From positions 1-64,000 of the forward strand of contig CAJQKB010000057.1 of assembly GCA_905478775.1 (NCBI GenBank): 64,000 bases of DNA. Reading direction: 5' to 3'. Shown here in pieces: positions 34,430-41,124 of this stretch. The first letter of the stretch is position 1; each line of letters opens with the position of its first letter. The translations under genes were made by a program, and so were the position numbers. The notes under the pieces were generated by a model, which searched no databases, was not told the origin of the DNA, and saw nothing but the letters and a program-made list of their open reading frames with translations. This stretch comes from an uncultured Opitutales bacterium. Its GTDB lineage: Bacteria; Verrucomicrobiota; Verrucomicrobiia; Opitutales; Seribacteraceae.

Positions 34430-35089
34430 TCAATCGGAGACAAGTATTTTTTGGGCTGTTTTATACCCCAGCGAAAATTTCGGCATTTTTTCAACCTGTA
34501 ATTCAATGGTATCGGCGACTTTTTCGTTTTTTACAAGCGTCACCATTCTTCCAGGCATCAGGCCTTTCGCCTGAGCAAAATTTAGAAATTCAGGACTTTG
34601 ATCAAGAATTGATTCAATTTTCATTTTCGTACCCACTAATGAATCTAAGAGGGTTTTTTTGGGTAATCTACGAATAATCCCGTTCTTTGTTGGAATTGGG
34701 TGCCCATGCGGGTCATGCCGAGGCTTGCCTAGAAATATGTCCAAACGCTCCAACACCTTCTCCGAAATGGCATGCTCGAGCACCTCCGCTTCATCATGAA
34801 TTTCGCTCCAATCTAGACCGAGAGTTTCAACTAAGAATGTTTCCAATAATCGATGGCGCCTTATCATTATCATCCCAATCTTCTTGCCCGATGGAGTAAG
34901 TCGAACTCCTTTCCGGGATTTATAAGAAAGCCATTTTTCTTTTTGAAGATTCTTCATCATCGAGGTCGCGGTCCCTGGAGTTACGCCAAGCGAAGTCGCA
35001 ATCATTCCCATCGGAACTTCTCCACGCTCACATTCCATCGATAATTTTAAGATCGACTTGAGGTAGTTTTCAACCGTCGCACTTGGCAT
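34430..35089 (-). CDS. mntR: DtxR/MntR-family metal-dependent repressor
   Basis: This 219-residue regulator contains a winged helix (ATVENYLKSILKLS, MIATSLGVTPGTATSMMKNL). The metal-binding dimerisation domain reads RRHRLLETFLVETLGLDWSE, then IHDEAEVLEHAIS and PRHDPHGHPIP. A C-terminal FeoA/SH3-like domain follows (GLMPGRMVTLVKN). The fold senses Fe(II) or Mn(II) and represses uptake genes. It is divergent from the metal transporter operon, sharing a 128-base promoter region with a dyad. The symbol reflects family likeness; metal specificity is not decided by the sequence. Confidence 0.9.
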   Translation of the reverse strand: MPSATVENYLKSILKLSMECERGEVPMGMIATSLGVTPGTATSMMKNLQKEKWLSYKSRKGVRLTPSGKKIGMIMIRRHRLLETFLVETLGLDWSEIHDEAEVLEHAISEKVLERLDIFLGKPRHDPHGHPIPTKNGIIRRLPKKTLLDSLVGTKMKIESILDQSPEFLNFAQAKGLMPGRMVTLVKNEKVADTIELQVEKMPKFSLGYKTAQKILVSD

Positions 35090-35116: not shown

Positions 35117-35144
35117 TTGACTCAAGGAAAATGATTGCTACACT
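35117..35144 (+). promoter_or_regulatory. Predicted sigma-70-like promoter of the metal-transporter operon
   Basis: A TTGACT (35117-35122) and a TACACT (35139-35144) are separated by 16 bases, a good -35/-10 pair reading toward the binding-protein gene at 35218. It lies 29 bases outside the divergent repressor's start. The dyad described next begins two bases after the -10, where a bound repressor would block initiation. Confidence 0.5.
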
Positions 35145-35145
35145 T

Positions 35146-35177
35146 TGACTAATCAAAAATAATACTTTTAATAGTCA
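35146..35177. promoter_or_regulatory. Candidate DtxR/MntR operator dyad
   Basis: The 32-base stretch is flanked by TGACTA (left) and TAGTCA (right). Comparing the left arm with the reverse complement of the right, 10 of the first 12 positions match (TGACTA-n-T-n-AAA). It lies between the divergent repressor and transporter genes, overlapping the likely transcription start of the latter. That is the expected position for a metal-repressor box; the sequence does not match a consensus I can name exactly. Confidence 0.45.
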
Positions 35178-35217: not shown

Positions 35218-36180
35218 ATGCTTTTTTTCTGCTCATTTTTATTGGGGGGATGCGGGGGAGAAACTAGACCCAAAGCAGACTCGGAGTCGAGTAGTTCGAG
35301 CAGTGAAAAAATTCGGCTTGTCGTGACCACAACCCAATTGTATGACCTCGCCCAACGATTAACCGGAGATCGTTTTTCCGTCACTTCCCTCATGGGTCCG
35401 GGTGTAGACCCTCACATATACAAACCCAGTTCGAGGGACATACTGGCACTTTCCAAGGCCAACCTTGTGGTTTATCATGGAATGCACCTTGAAGGCAGAC
35501 TAGCAGAAGCACTTAGTCATAGCGAAGAAAACGGCATTTCAACATTCAACGCCACTGGCAGTTTGCCGAACAAGAGAATCATTTACTCAATCTCAGGACA
35601 CAGCGAACAACAGTACCCAGACCCCCATGTGTGGTTTGATCCAAAGATTTGGTCCTTTATTGTAAACGAATTTACTCGCAGGGTGATTCGCTGTAACCCC
35701 TCGGAACAAAAACAATTTGAATCCAGGGCAATTCAAATTTCAGATAGTATTTCCAAAATTGAGGAATGGGGGATAAATGAAATTAAGAAAATACCCAAGG
35801 ACCAGCGTACTTTAATAACGAGCCATGATGCATTTCAATATTTGGGTCGGGCCATGGGACTACAGGTGATTGCACTACAAGGAATGTCTACCACCGCGGA
35901 AGCGGGATTAGCTGACCGGGCTAATCTGGTTGACCTTATTCAAGACCATAATATTCCCGCTATCTTTATTGAAAGTAGCGTCAATCCGACTGCGATTCAA
36001 GAAATTGCAAAAGAATGTAATGTCGAGGTGGGAGGAGAATTATTTTCGGATGCACTTGGTTCCAACAATCAATTTGCTACCGGGCCAAACGGAATACAAT
36101 ACTCTGTTGGTACCTGGGAAGGAATGATGGTTCACAATATTAACACTATCGTAAAGGCATTACGAAAAAGAAGAAAATGA
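35218..36180 (+). CDS. ytgA: Metal ABC transporter substrate-binding lipoprotein (TroA/YtgA type)
   Basis: The 320-residue lipoprotein starts at ATG 35218 with lipobox LLGGC (Cys12); the n-region lacks a positive charge, so the real start may be a little upstream and non-standard. A Ser/Glu-rich linker leads to a cluster A-I binding protein. Predicted metal ligands His66 (DPHIYKP), His137 (DPHVWFD), His203 (TSHDAFQYLG) and Asp278 (FSDAL) form the His3-Asp set of TroA. This set binds Zn, Mn or Fe. It begins a four-gene operon with ATPase and two permeases, overlapping the ATPase start by ATGA. Confidence 0.92.
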   Translation: MLFFCSFLLGGCGGETRPKADSESSSSSSEKIRLVVTTTQLYDLAQRLTGDRFSVTSLMGPGVDPHIYKPSSRDILALSKANLVVYHGMHLEGRLAEALSHSEENGISTFNATGSLPNKRIIYSISGHSEQQYPDPHVWFDPKIWSFIVNEFTRRVIRCNPSEQKQFESRAIQISDSISKIEEWGINEIKKIPKDQRTLITSHDAFQYLGRAMGLQVIALQGMSTTAEAGLADRANLVDLIQDHNIPAIFIESSVNPTAIQEIAKECNVEVGGELFSDALGSNNQFATGPNGIQYSVGTWEGMMVHNINTIVKALRKRRK

Positions 36181-36977
36181 GTGCCAGTCCACCGTTATTC
36201 CCCCTTGAGGTTCATGATTTAACCGTTTCCTACCACACAAAACCAGTATTGTATGGGGTTGATTTACAGATAGAGGAAGGTTCATTAGTGGGAGTAATTG
36301 GCCCAAACGGTGCCGGTAAATCGACACTTATAAAAACCATTATGGGAATCGTTCCACCCAGCGGTGGATGGGTAAAAATCTTTGGTCAAAAAGGAAAAAA
36401 GGCTTACACGAGAGTCGGATATGTGCCTCAACGCGAATCAGTGGACTGGGATTTTCCTGTCTCAGTATTAGATGTTGTCCTGATGGGTCGATTTGCACAT
36501 GTGGGATGGTTGAAGCGAGTAAGTAAAAAAGATCGCTCCATTGCTTGTGAATGTCTCGAAAAAGTAAACATGCTTTCATTTGCGGACCGACAAATTGGAA
36601 AACTCTCCGGTGGACAACAACAGAGAGTCTTTCTTGCTCGGGCATTGGCACAGGAGAGTGACCTCTACTTAATGGACGAACCCTTCTCAGGAGTGGATGC
36701 AGTTACTGAGAATGCGATTATTGAACTACTCAGAGAATTAAAGAATAATGGAAAAACATTACTTGTAGTCCACCATGATTTATCCAATGCGAAAGATTAT
36801 TTTGATCAGTTGATACTACTCAATATGAGATTGATTGCACATGGAAAAAGGGAAGACACATTCACCAAAGAACTTCTTCAAAAAACATATGGTGGAAGAC
36901 TTACAGTGTTTACAGAAATTGCAGGACAAGCCGCCAGTAGCCAAACTTCCAACCAATTCCCTCAAAAGCATTTGTGA
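36177..36977 (+). CDS. ytgB: Metal ABC transporter ATPase (TroB/YtgB/MntA type)
   Basis: The 266-residue ATPase has Walker A GPNGAGKST, Q-loop GYVPQRESVDWDFPVSVLDVV (typical of metal-type ATPases), signature [15 protein letters not shown], Walker B LYLMDEPF and H-loop VHHDLSN. Its start overlaps the binding-protein stop (ATGA). It provides energy for the two permeases downstream. Confidence 0.95.
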   Translation: MSASPPLFPLEVHDLTVSYHTKPVLYGVDLQIEEGSLVGVIGPNGAGKSTLIKTIMGIVPPSGGWVKIFGQKGKKAYTRVGYVPQRESVDWDFPVSVLDVVLMGRFAHVGWLKRVSKKDRSIACECLEKVNMLSFADRQIGKLSGGQQQRVFLARALAQESDLYLMDEPFSGVDAVTENAIIELLRELKNNGKTLLVVHHDLSNAKDYFDQLILLNMRLIAHGKREDTFTKELLQKTYGGRLTVFTEIAGQAASSQTSNQFPQKHL

Positions 36978-37008
36978 GGTTATATAACTCTCCGTATAGA
37001 CTAGTTGT

Positions 37009-38478
37009 ATGAATCTGAATTTTTTTCAATTCGTTCCCTTTTTTCGCACCATTCTTTTTCTTTTTACTGCGGGTAGTCTCCATGCGGAACAGATTGCAGA
37101 AGATTCCTCTCTCTCTATTCAAACAGTTCGCTTTCTTTCGCTGACAGATTATTCAGTCCAAATCGTTCTTTTAGGAGTAATATTGATGGGAATGGGGTGC
37201 GGGTTAATGGGAGGCTTTGTAGTCACTAGGAAGTTATCCCTTTTTGGTGATACCTTGTCACACGCTGTACTTCCCGGTGTCGCAGTGGGCTTTATATTTA
37301 GCCAGTCAAAAAATTCGTTCAGTATTTTAATGGGTGCGATGATCGCCGGTTTCCTAGGAGTATTTCTGATTTCCTTAATCAAAAAAACTACAAAAGTGAG
37401 ACTTGATAGTGCGCTCGGATTAGTACTGTCCGGATTCTATGCAGTGGGAATTTGCTTATTAACTAGAATCCAGAAAATGGAATTTGGAAATCAATCCGGG
37501 ATTGACCGATACCTGTTTGGTCAAATTACCGGACTGTCGACAGCGGATGTTTTGGGGATGGGAATTTCATGCATTCTTATTCTTTTACTCACATTTCTAT
37601 TATACAAAGAAATGCTAGTAACCGGATTTGATCCTGGATTCGCTCGTTCTGTAGGAATACCGGTGGATTTGCTTCAATACATACTTTGGATGTTGTTAGC
37701 ATTTTCTGTCATTACTTCCCTTCAGGTAGTGGGAGTAATATTGGTTTCCGCATTGTTAATTATACCGGCTGCAACTGCATCGATTATTACCCAAAGAATG
37801 AAGTCACTTCTTTTTTGGTCAGCCGGGCTGGGAATTCTAGCCGGAATTGTGGGAACATACTTATCATTTCTGGGCAATCGATTACCGACGGGGCCCTTGA
37901 TCATATTAACCTCAACAAGTTTTTTTATTATTACCCTTTTCTTACATTTCAGAAATGGTCTTCTTTTCAAATGGATTCGCTCGCGGGGAAAAGAGCAAAA
38001 AATCGCAATCGAAAACACATTAAAGGCAATCTACCAAGAATTGGAAAATCATAATTTTTCGGAAGATACAATCACACTTGGAAATCTAGCAAAAAGGAGA
38101 AGGATTAATATGCCAGAGGCCCATAAGGAGGTAAAAAACCTGGTTAAAAAAAATCTCGCTTTTCTGCTTCTTAAAAAAAATCAGACACTCCCGAATGAAG
38201 ATATCTTGTCATTAACCCCAGAGGGTTGGAGTGAAGCATGCAGAATTGTGAGAAACCACAGACTATGGGAGTTGTATTTAACCAATGAAGTTCACTATGC
38301 CCCAGACCATGTTCACGAAGATGCGGAAAAAATTGAACATATTTTGGGCGATACAACGGTTCGAAAAATTGAACGAATTTTATCCAATCCAAGACGGGAT
38401 CCCCATGGAAAATTAATCCCTAGCCAACAAGATATTGAACAGGGGTTTATCGAAAAAAAAGTAATTCGGACTGTATAA
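37009..38478 (+). CDS. ytgCR: Metal ABC permease fused to a DtxR-like repressor (YtgCR type)
   Basis: The 489-residue protein is an ABC-3 permease (about residues 45-320; GCGLMGGFVVTRKLSLFGDTLSHAVLPG, VVGVILVSALLIIPAATA) carrying a C-terminal cytoplasmic extension from about 328. The extension is a DtxR-like module: a winged-helix region (AIENTLKAIYQELE, TLGNLAKRRRINMPEAHKEV, LTPEGWSEA) and the dimerisation/metal region (RNHRLWELYL, HVHEDAEKIEHIL, PRRDPHGKLIP). The same fusion exists in Chlamydia as YtgCR, where the repressor is released by proteolysis and controls iron-responsive genes. A hydrophobic N-terminus (residues 8-26) may be a signal peptide. It overlaps the next permease start (TAATG). 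Confidence 0.93.
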   Translation: MNLNFFQFVPFFRTILFLFTAGSLHAEQIAEDSSLSIQTVRFLSLTDYSVQIVLLGVILMGMGCGLMGGFVVTRKLSLFGDTLSHAVLPGVAVGFIFSQSKNSFSILMGAMIAGFLGVFLISLIKKTTKVRLDSALGLVLSGFYAVGICLLTRIQKMEFGNQSGIDRYLFGQITGLSTADVLGMGISCILILLLTFLLYKEMLVTGFDPGFARSVGIPVDLLQYILWMLLAFSVITSLQVVGVILVSALLIIPAATASIITQRMKSLLFWSAGLGILAGIVGTYLSFLGNRLPTGPLIILTSTSFFIITLFLHFRNGLLFKWIRSRGKEQKIAIENTLKAIYQELENHNFSEDTITLGNLAKRRRINMPEAHKEVKNLVKKNLAFLLLKKNQTLPNEDILSLTPEGWSEACRIVRNHRLWELYLTNEVHYAPDHVHEDAEKIEHILGDTTVRKIERILSNPRRDPHGKLIPSQQDIEQGFIEKKVIRTV

Positions 38479-39425
38479 TGGATCATTTTTTCCCACCCCT
38501 GGACTTACTTGATACCTTTGCCATGCCATGGGCATCACCAGAAGATATTATTTGGAACGGGAAAATTGTCGCGATGGGCTTTTTTGTTTGTCTTTCGTGT
38601 GGATTAATTGGCGCCTTTATCGTAGTTCGAAAACTCGCCTTGATGGGAGATGCAATTAGTCATGGAATCCTTCCCGGGCTCGCCCTTTCATTTATGATAA
38701 CTCAATCAAAAGCCTTACTCCCCATGTTCATTGGTGCCTGTATTGCCGGATTGCTATGTAGCCTTTGTATTGAATGGCTTCAAAAAAAATCACCCCTTAA
38801 AGCAGATGCAGCTCTTGGCTTAACATTTACCAGTTTTTTTGCTTTAGGCGTCCTGTTAATTACTCAAATGGGAAATAACGCACATATTGATGCAGAGTGT
38901 TTACTGTACGGAGAAATTGGATTCACTCCTCTCGCGAAAAATTTAAAATGGGGGGCTATTGAACTTGGTCCCCGTCCCCTTGCGACCATGGCAATGGTTA
39001 CACTTTTAATCATTTCTATAATGATTGTATTTTACAAGCAATTGCTTGTGACAAGCTTTGATGAAACACTTTCGATATCACTAGGGTTACCAATCAAAGC
39101 AATCCATTATGGACTAATGTTGCTCCTTGCTACCACTATTGTCGCAGCATTTGAATCAGTGGGAGTAATTCTTGTCATTGCGATGCTTATCTTTCCCTCC
39201 ACCACTGCCTCCTTTTTCTTTTCTCGGATGCCAGCAATTTTATTTTCTACAATCCCGTTGGCTTTTATTTATTCTTTCGGAGGATTTTTCTTGGCTCGAT
39301 GGCTTGATTGCTCGATTGCAGCATCCATGGTTGTAATTGCAATGTTTTGCTTTGGATTGGCATGGCTGTTTGGACCGGTTGATGGTGTAATCCCAAAACT
39401 GCTGTATCGGAAAGTATCGGTCTAG
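38478..39425 (+). CDS. ytgD: Metal ABC transporter permease (TroD/YtgD type)
   Basis: The 315-residue protein is an ABC-3 permease with the family landmarks CGLIGAFIVVRKLALMGDAISHGILPGLALSF, ALGLTFTSFFALGVLLI and ESVGVILVIAMLIFPSTTA. Unlike its upstream neighbour it ends just after the last helix with no regulatory extension. The two permeases form a heterodimeric channel. A strong hairpin terminator follows 25 bases after the stop. Confidence 0.95.
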   Translation: MDHFFPPLDLLDTFAMPWASPEDIIWNGKIVAMGFFVCLSCGLIGAFIVVRKLALMGDAISHGILPGLALSFMITQSKALLPMFIGACIAGLLCSLCIEWLQKKSPLKADAALGLTFTSFFALGVLLITQMGNNAHIDAECLLYGEIGFTPLAKNLKWGAIELGPRPLATMAMVTLLIISIMIVFYKQLLVTSFDETLSISLGLPIKAIHYGLMLLLATTIVAAFESVGVILVIAMLIFPSTTASFFFSRMPAILFSTIPLAFIYSFGGFFLARWLDCSIAASMVVIAMFCFGLAWLFGPVDGVIPKLLYRKVSV

Positions 39426-39504: not shown

Positions 39505-39813
39505 TTATCCCTTCTTTTCTTTCTTTCCTTTTCCTTTTGCCAAAGCAATCTTGGAAGCAGTCTTATTTTTGCAATTGCAACCGTCAATGCTTACGCGGGC
39601 ACCTTTTTTGAGTTTTGTTGGGCAATCAATACCAACCATTTCAGTTTTGCTGCCTACTTGGACTTTCTTTTCCTTTTTTCCTTGAGTAATTGTAAGTGTT
39701 TTTGACTCTTCATCGAATCCAACAACCTTGCCGTGAATAGCTTTGGATGGACAACCGGCAAACACGGAACCAGCAAATGCGATAGAGGCGAGTAATAAGA
39801 ATAATTTTTTCAT
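39505..39813 (-). CDS. Small exported Cys-containing protein of unknown function
   Basis: The 102-residue product has a signal peptide ending SVFAG, then CPSKAIHGKVVGFDEESKTL, DCPTKLKKGARVSIDGCNC and a Lys-rich end (KGKGKKEKKG). The four cysteines (CP, DCP, GCNC) could form disulfides or bind a metal. The central part with TITQGKKEKKVQVGSKTEMV resembles short beta-barrel domains that handle small exported cargo, but I recognise no family. It converges with the metal transporter operon. Confidence 0.7.
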   Translation of the reverse strand: MKKLFLLLASIAFAGSVFAGCPSKAIHGKVVGFDEESKTLTITQGKKEKKVQVGSKTEMVGIDCPTKLKKGARVSIDGCNCKNKTASKIALAKGKGKKEKKG

Positions 39814-39963
39814 AGTGGGTAATATATTTTGTTAATATGTTATGTATTAGAAATATCATTCAATGAGCAATTACAAGATAGACAAGGAAGAAGTACTCAA
39901 TTTTAATAAATTTACTGAACGACCTTACAAGAAATACTAAAACCTAGATTTTCCTACCCCTTG

Positions 39964-41124
39964 ATGAAATTCGTAACGATTTATTTCCTCCTCCTATCCA
40001 CATTTGCCCTATTAAATGGCCATCCGATCCCTGATATTCCCGTAATTGGTGATTTTGATCAAAACGGGTCCAGTGTGATCACCGTGGAAATTGATACCCG
40101 TAGCTTTGCTGATGACCCCGAAGAGGTTCCCATGCTCAGTGGACCCGCTTTTGATAAGCTAACAGCGGAAGAAAAAAAAGACTTACTGCTGGAAGGAAAA
40201 AACCTAATTAGGGAGGCTTTGCTTATTAGATTTGATGAAAAAGAATGGTTTTTACCTGACTTTGAATATGACTTTGAAAAAAAAATCGGGGGGAACACCG
40301 TTGAAGAAAGTGATACCTTTGTCATCCGGGGATACGCTCGCATAAAGTTAAGTTCGGAATCCCAATCCTATCAAATTCGTGCCAAGGAATCAGCAGTTTA
40401 TGATATTATATTTACAAACCGGCTAAATGGCATACCACAAAAAAGAGTTAATGTTTTATTTCCTGGAGAAAACAGCTTTACTTTAGATTTGACCAATTTT
40501 TTTGGACCGGGAGAGGAAAGTAACAGTACCGAATCATCCAAGTTCGAATATAAAGACACTGCTGATTCGCAAAGCACATTCATTTCATTTCTCCGACAGG
40601 GATTTGTCCATGTTGTTCCTCTCGGACTGGATCATATTTTATTTGTCTTCGGTTTATTTCTTTTGTCCAGAAGATGGAAACCCCTGATCTTACAAGTGAG
40701 TGCATTCACATTAGCGCACACCCTAACTTTGGGTCTAGCCACATTGGGTATCATTTCAGTTTCTCCCCAAATCGTGGAACCAATTATTGCCGCCAGTATT
40801 GCGGTCATCGCTCTGGAAAATATTTTTTTCCCAGGATACAAACCCTATCGCTTAGTAATTGTTTTTATTTTTGGGCTGATTCATGGTCTTGGTTTTGCCG
40901 GTGCATTAAGTGGATTTAATCTTGAACCCACCTCCCTGTTACTTGGATTGTTTGGGTTTAACCTAGGCGTTGAGTTTGGACAGCTTGCTTTGCTCATTGC
41001 TGCTTATTTGTTAACCGCTCAAATTAAAAATCAGTCAAATTATAGACAATGGATTGTCATACCCGGTTCAATCACTATTGCCCTTTTCGGCATATATTGG
41101 ACGATTGAACGGATCTTCTTTTAA
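39964..41124 (+). CDS. HupE/UreJ-2-type membrane protein with large exported N-terminal domain
   Basis: The start is ATG 39964; the preceding in-frame TTG adds only one residue. A signal peptide (MKFVTIYFLLLSTFALLNG) leads into a ~190-residue extracytoplasmic domain. The C-terminal half is a HupE/UreJ_2 membrane domain: FVHVVPLGLDHILFVFGLFL, ILQVSAFTLAHTLTLGLATL and FIFGLIHGLGFAGALSG, with conserved histidines in helices. HupE/UreJ proteins are linked to nickel, cobalt or other metal import or insertion. It precedes a CxxC protein, a Met/His-rich outer-membrane protein and a TonB receptor. Confidence 0.85.
   Translation: MKFVTIYFLLLSTFALLNGHPIPDIPVIGDFDQNGSSVITVEIDTRSFADDPEEVPMLSGPAFDKLTAEEKKDLLLEGKNLIREALLIRFDEKEWFLPDFEYDFEKKIGGNTVEESDTFVIRGYARIKLSSESQSYQIRAKESAVYDIIFTNRLNGIPQKRVNVLFPGENSFTLDLTNFFGPGEESNSTESSKFEYKDTADSQSTFISFLRQGFVHVVPLGLDHILFVFGLFLLSRRWKPLILQVSAFTLAHTLTLGLATLGIISVSPQIVEPIIAASIAVIALENIFFPGYKPYRLVIVFIFGLIHGLGFAGALSGFNLEPTSLLLGLFGFNLGVEFGQLALLIAAYLLTAQIKNQSNYRQWIVIPGSITIALFGIYWTIERIFF

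Follow-up and report, generated by a model that had tools for sequence, protein, structure and literature searches.

A DtxR-like tail on a manganese-type ABC permease of an Opitutales bacterium as a candidate metal sensor for its own importer

Background

A 64,000-nucleotide stretch of DNA from an uncultured Opitutales bacterium (the window) contains an operon whose product is probably an ABC importer of the manganese (or Mn/Fe) type. Its C permease bears a DtxR/MntR domain that appears to have been captured. We propose, with about an even chance of being right, that this tail is a cytosolic metal sensor gating its own importer (trans-inhibition). High cytosolic metal would occupy the tail site, formed by helix 1 together with H417, E421, H436, E440, E443 and H444; the metal-bound tail would alter its packing or pairing and, via a rigid helix from the last membrane segment, would keep the transporter resting. 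Transcription would be handled separately by a divergent stand-alone DtxR acting on the palindrome TTTGAYTAATCAAA at the ytgA promoter. The 'membrane-tethered metal sensor' offered by the first-pass annotation of this DNA comes near to this explanation.

Ever since they were studied in Chlamydia, permease-DtxR fusions have been interpreted as repressors that a protease sets free. In YtgCR of Chlamydia trachomatis (CT069, ytgABCD), as in the window, an ABC-3 permease with a C-terminal DtxR-like domain is encoded by the third gene of an A-B-CR-D operon, and the metal-coordinating residues are reported to be conserved (PMC5599777). What is new here is evidence, drawn from sequence comparison, against a released repressor in the window lineage.

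Results and discussion

Organization of the operon

The operon lies on the forward strand in the order A-B-CR-D, with CR as the third gene between the ATPase and an untailed permease, and the gene pairs A-B and CR-D show stop/start overlaps. Gene A (35218-36180) encodes a substrate-binding lipoprotein of the YtgA/TroA/PsaA type (ZnuA-type SBP; PF01297, E 1e-67) with the lipobox LGGC. Gene B (36177-36977), which overlaps A by 4 bases, encodes an ABC ATPase of the YtgB type (PF00005) with 266 aa, in which ABC_tran is the sole full domain recognised and for which the top NCBIfam matches are Mn MntA-type ATPases. Gene CR (37009-38478) encodes the YtgCR-type fusion of permease and DtxR-like tail (489 aa), and gene D (38478-39425), with one base in common with the CR stop codon, encodes a second, untailed ABC-3 permease of the YtgD type (PF00950, E 8e-47). 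The divergent gene on the reverse strand (34430-35089) encodes a stand-alone DtxR/MntR-type regulator of 219 aa with a FeoA domain (PF02742, E 3e-31; PF04023; PF01325). The operon has the components of an ABC-3 Mn/Fe/Zn importer (TC 3.A.1.15), namely a substrate-binding protein, an ATPase and an ABC-3 permease with the GD..SH residues. These Pfam matches confirmed what had been annotated at first: an A-B-CR-D operon in a non-chlamydial Verrucomicrobiota genome, accompanied by a second, stand-alone divergent DtxR. Only two PF02742 matches were found in the window genome, namely the CR tail and the divergent DtxR. On the 3' side of the operon (39505-41124), a small secreted protein (102 aa, with a weak LSM12-like match) and a HupE/UreJ membrane protein are encoded.

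Domains and fold of the CR protein

The coordinates of the CR open reading frame and its sequence motifs were as first described, and the reading of its product as an ABC-3 permease with a DtxR-like C-terminus was borne out by Pfam (ABC-3 and Fe_dep_repr_C) and by the Foldseek match to repressors. The ABC-3 domain covers residues 50-311 (37156-37941, forward strand; E 3.1e-66). Its D81 and H85, both invariant among relatives, align to the GD..SH residues of PsaC, and their counterparts in MntC, D47 and H51, are essential (PMC8487065). The metal-binding/dimerisation module of the tail covers residues 403-471 (38215-38421, forward strand; PF02742/Fe_dep_repr_C, E 1e-23, above the Pfam cut-off), so that permease and DtxR-type metal/dimer domain stand in a single ORF, the architecture that defines YtgCR fusions. 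Of the proposed match to DtxR families, this half is recognised by Pfam; for the winged-helix half, a Pfam search of the CR tail for PF01325 gave no match, and the likeness to repressors comes from structure comparison.

In the AlphaFold model of CR (mean pLDDT 85), the N-terminal part matched the Mn permease PsaC (7kyp, E 1.5e-16) by Foldseek, and about 143 residues of the tail matched Mn/Fe repressors (8pvt, 5zr6, 5cvi and DtxR, E 1.8e-6 or weaker), with the Mn repressor DR2539 among the matches. The nearest solved structures are thus a Mn permease and Mn repressors, a kinship that supports the gating reading. On the basis of these structures and of the Glu at the position of DtxR Cys102, manganese is favoured as the metal, and iron is possible. 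At its N-terminus (37009-37140), CR has an extension, modelled with low confidence, that resembles a signal peptide (ILFLFTAGSLHA) and lies ahead of the first permease helix.

Distribution of the fusion

A search for related loci gave 68 loci, nearly all from Verrucomicrobiota and with the A-B-CR-D order retained, and the full-length fusion in the same gene order was present in more than 60 independent records. A profile built from an alignment of 27 CR sequences had matches in 50 of 57 close relatives, and a hand count, which may be off by a few, gave a full or near-full fusion in 23 of the 27 genomes of the genus. A sequencing or assembly chimera was rejected on the ground of this recurrence in independent records and same-genus genomes, in agreement with the first-pass annotation, which had treated the fusion as genuine. 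At the phylum level, counts made by hand from match ranges, which may be off by a few, gave the full fused permease in about 52 of 388 Verrucomicrobiota genomes and in 19 of 248 genomes of a Bacteroidota sample (the phylum of Nonlabens), where a further two dozen genomes have the HTH part only. No relative spanning 80% of the query was found among plasmids, viral contigs yielded no relatives, and the plasmid records of the chlamydial Simkania and Waddlia had no match to CR. The fusion indeed extends beyond obligate intracellular chlamydiae, as had been noticed in the window. This is already known and is not new, as orthologous permease-repressor fusions in 11 phyla are attributed to Thompson et al. 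2012 by the review PMC5599777.

A DtxR/MntR unfused to a permease is also present in 41 of 44 carrying genomes, a count made by hand that takes in incomplete genomes; no other DtxR match was found in the remaining three (G641, G657 and G687). The retention of an unfused regulator by nearly all carriers supports the gating reading.

Metal face and DNA-reading face of the tail

The tail ligands N336, H417, E421, H436, E440, E443 and H444 are 98-100% conserved in 64 tails of the window type (class I), one contig of this set stopping before three of the ligand positions. The putative recognition helix of the tail (residues 367-378; 38107-38142, forward strand) is not conserved. Mean pairwise identities were compared between tails and stand-alone regulators in the same 24 loci that have both: 0.35 against 0.79 for the recognition helix, 0.27 against 0.59 for the wing, 0.89 against 0.87 for the metal/dimer region and 0.71 against 0.70 for helix 1. 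In 12 disjoint nearest pairs, the recognition helix was less conserved in the tail in 10 and more conserved in 1 (p 0.012), and the other regions had no such bias. The mean net charge of the recognition helix was -1.5 in tails versus +1.0 in stand-alone regulators, and that of the whole wHTH was -2.0 versus +2.3. The T-P-G-T-A-T helix of the stand-alone DtxR is largely constant in 24 relatives; the tail has the PF02742 domain with its ligands, and where a conserved PF01325 DNA-binding helix of the S/T-P-x-T/S-V type was sought, a hypervariable helix was found.

A recognition helix that drifts and is acidic while the metal face is kept supports gating. It also bears on the possibility that the tail works as in Chlamydia, where YtgR is known as a 28 kDa fragment repressing the ytg promoter (PMC5599777, PMC7755916): a protease would free the tail, which would bind DNA in a metal-dependent manner and repress the operon beside the stand-alone DtxR. 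The shared architecture and gene order and the repressor-like fold of the tail speak for this possibility, and the DNA binding of released chlamydial YtgR weakens the gating reading in so far as repressor use is possible in one branch. However, the unconserved, acidic helix makes a released repressor a disfavoured reading for the window lineage, and a dedicated DtxR already adjoins the operon. The drift could instead reflect lineage-specific DNA targets, which would weaken the case for gating. Residue W420 (38266-38268), in the motif H-R-L-W-E, is the same in each of the 58 fused tails of the tail tree, whereas stand-alone regulators have L, W or V at this position. This Trp may serve in docking.

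Promoter and candidate operator

The operon promoter was read from the sequence as a -35 box TTGACT (35117-35122, forward strand) and, after a 16-base spacer, a -10 box TACACT (35139-35144, forward strand), with TTGAC[TA] at the equivalent place in nearly all of the 24 loci. Comparison of these loci predicted an operator, TTTGACTAATCAAA in the window (35144-35157), beside the -10 box. In the intergenic region of 24/24 loci, the palindrome TTTGAYTAATCAAA overlaps or adjoins the -10 box. It departs from the consensus by 1.1 mismatches on average, compared with 4.9 for shuffled sequences, and none of 200 shuffles did as well. An exact copy of its extended form ACTTTGACTAATCAAA occurs only once in the 2.78 Mb genome, at the ytgA promoter. 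Because both this palindrome and the stand-alone helix are constant while the tail helix is variable, the stand-alone DtxR is the likely reader of TTTGAYTAATCAAA. An operator that stays constant in 24 loci although the tail helices differ is evidence against a cleaved tail acting on the promoter and supports gating.

In six loci that lack a divergent DtxR (L051, L055, L056, L058, L060 and L064), another operator-like palindrome, TTAGCC(NN)GGCTAA, precedes the SBP gene A. A two-domain MntR with a well conserved helix is encoded elsewhere in the two genomes of these loci that were examined, as well as in others of the clade.

The link between permease and tail

Permease and tail are joined by an 18-residue step from G317 to E335 (37957-38013, forward strand), predicted as a continuous helix. 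When its length was measured with separate HMMs, the permease model ending at G317 and the tail model starting at E335, it was 18 in 117 of 117 measurable proteins; a joint alignment that included HTH-only tails, a less independent measure, gave 18 in 163/163. In the AlphaFold model a single ordered helix (318-347) runs on into the winged helix, and the start of the winged helix near residue 328 had accordingly been placed correctly to within a few residues. The release of a free tail from an internal start was rejected, as the proteins with measured spacing have no conserved start codon there.

Such an invariant, helical and basic link fits conformational signalling better than domain release; together with the absence of a conserved internal start, the fixed spacing and continuous helix support the gating reading. 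The invariant spacing could also be a by-product of a single ancient fusion within a helix. A variable, protease-accessible stretch is absent, and the fixed length would count mildly against proteolytic release of the tail. The 'protease-released' sensor suggested at first is disfavoured here by the unconserved and acidic helix, the conserved DtxR with its operator and the invariant spacing, and we regard a cleaved repressor in the window lineage as unlikely.

Variants and ancestry

Tails fall into several types. In class I the tail is on C only and the ligands are N/H/E/H/E/E/H; in class II the N of helix 1 is replaced by H, H436 by D and E440 by D, and DPHG is lost. In the double-tailed operons L190-L202, C bears a class II tail (H/D/D) and the ligands of the D tail are classical, so such importers would possess two sensors each. 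These operons support the gating reading. It is weakened by the window itself, where C alone is tailed and a CD heterodimer would have one sensor, yet DtxR domains pair. Other arrangements include co-directional DtxR-A-B-CR-D loci in the Bacteroidota phylum (L205-L210) and permeases fused to a three-domain regulator with a FeoA-like domain that have no A/B/D neighbours (L214, L215). In L212 and L213 (genomes G641 and G657), a tailed permease without adjoining A, B or D contains the sole PF02742 match of the genome. In L064 (4681-5007), from a MAG, the tail is a separate ORF of 108 aa owing to a stop or frameshift, either an error or a natural fission.

Winged-helix-only tails without the metal module occur on both C and D in L164-L176, L070 and L204 (Bacteroidota-type and one Verrucomicrobiota), the C tails keeping H and [HP]H and the D tails keeping H, H and HL..H. 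These Bacteroidota tails weaken the gating reading, which would need a new site in them, and it is possible that the conserved histidines provide a substitute metal site where C meets D. The same tails bear on the idea that an ancient fusion was retained to help folding or assembly and takes no part in regulation; their persistence and the many untailed D permeases can be cited for it. The near-invariance of the metal ligands across two phyla would be unexpected for a passive domain, and we find a vestigial or structural tail improbable.

An unrooted tree was built from 78 DtxR-like domains, comprising 58 fused tails and 20 stand-alone regulators from such genomes, in which the long rows L203 and L214 are unsure. 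One split with a support of 100/100 sets the fused tails, which belong to C, to D or to single permeases of two phyla, apart from the 20 stand-alone regulators. Independent fusion in each clade is not supported, as 58/58 fused tails are on one side of this branch. The permease tree, also unrooted, separates C from D. This pattern fits an old fusion, perhaps preceding the C/D duplication and followed by losses on D, the direction not being proven by unrooted trees. The single split further supports the gating reading. An origin confined to the PVC group, as in the first-pass proposal of an 'ancestral PVC' sensor, was rejected, as the fusion is present in the Bacteroidota sample and the fused tails are split from stand-alone regulators with full support.

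The same tree bears on a role of the tail as a membrane trap or partner, in which its dimer face would pair with the stand-alone DtxR and the state or abundance of the transporter would set the level of free repressor. A metal/dimer module as conserved as that of the stand-alone repressor and the co-occurrence of tail and DtxR/MntR in most carriers, often adjacent, would suit this role. Against it, the fused tails form a clade of their own, the three genomes named above have a tail with no other DtxR match, and the partners vary, being three-domain DtxR in some clades and two-domain MntR in others, which makes such a role quite unlikely.

Comparison with known systems

The window operon differs from ytgABCD in that a stand-alone DtxR lies beside it and has a constant operator of its own, and its type of tail has an unconserved recognition helix that is acidic on average, the chlamydial side of this comparison being taken from published descriptions. 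It resembles the Mn importers PsaBC and MntBC (7KYP; TC 3.A.1.15) in the permease fold and the GD..SH metal residues. Unlike CR, PsaC and MntC lack a cytosolic tail, and unlike the homodimeric MntC (PMC8487065), C and D of the window are different subunits. The tail shares its fold, its metal ligand positions and the Glu replacing DtxR Cys102 with repressors of the MntR/SloR/DR2539 type; it differs from them in being fused to a permease, in lacking a conserved recognition helix, in its invariant W420 and, in the window, in having no SH3/FeoA domain.

For the proposed logic, MetNI and ModBC offer an analogy, as in both the imported substrate binds an added cytosolic domain and stops transport (PMC10710835). 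The gating reading gains support from the fact that trans-inhibition by such extra domains is an established mechanism in these importers; that their domains, of another fold, are located on the ATPase, and not on the permease as is the repressor-derived domain of the window, weakens it.

Conclusions

With a probability that we put slightly short of even, Verrucomicrobiota and Bacteroidota would share a large metal importer family in which a metal-responsive repressor domain became an in-cis permease gate. Its variants would have one tail, two tails, altered ligands or the HTH part only, and the release of YtgR in Chlamydia would be a special use by organisms in which repression passed to the tail. 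Should the tail indeed act as a gate, these importers would, as far as we know, be without precedent among ABC importers in having a substrate sensor on the permease that derives from a transcription factor; the retention of a separate repressor by almost all carriers would then be accounted for.
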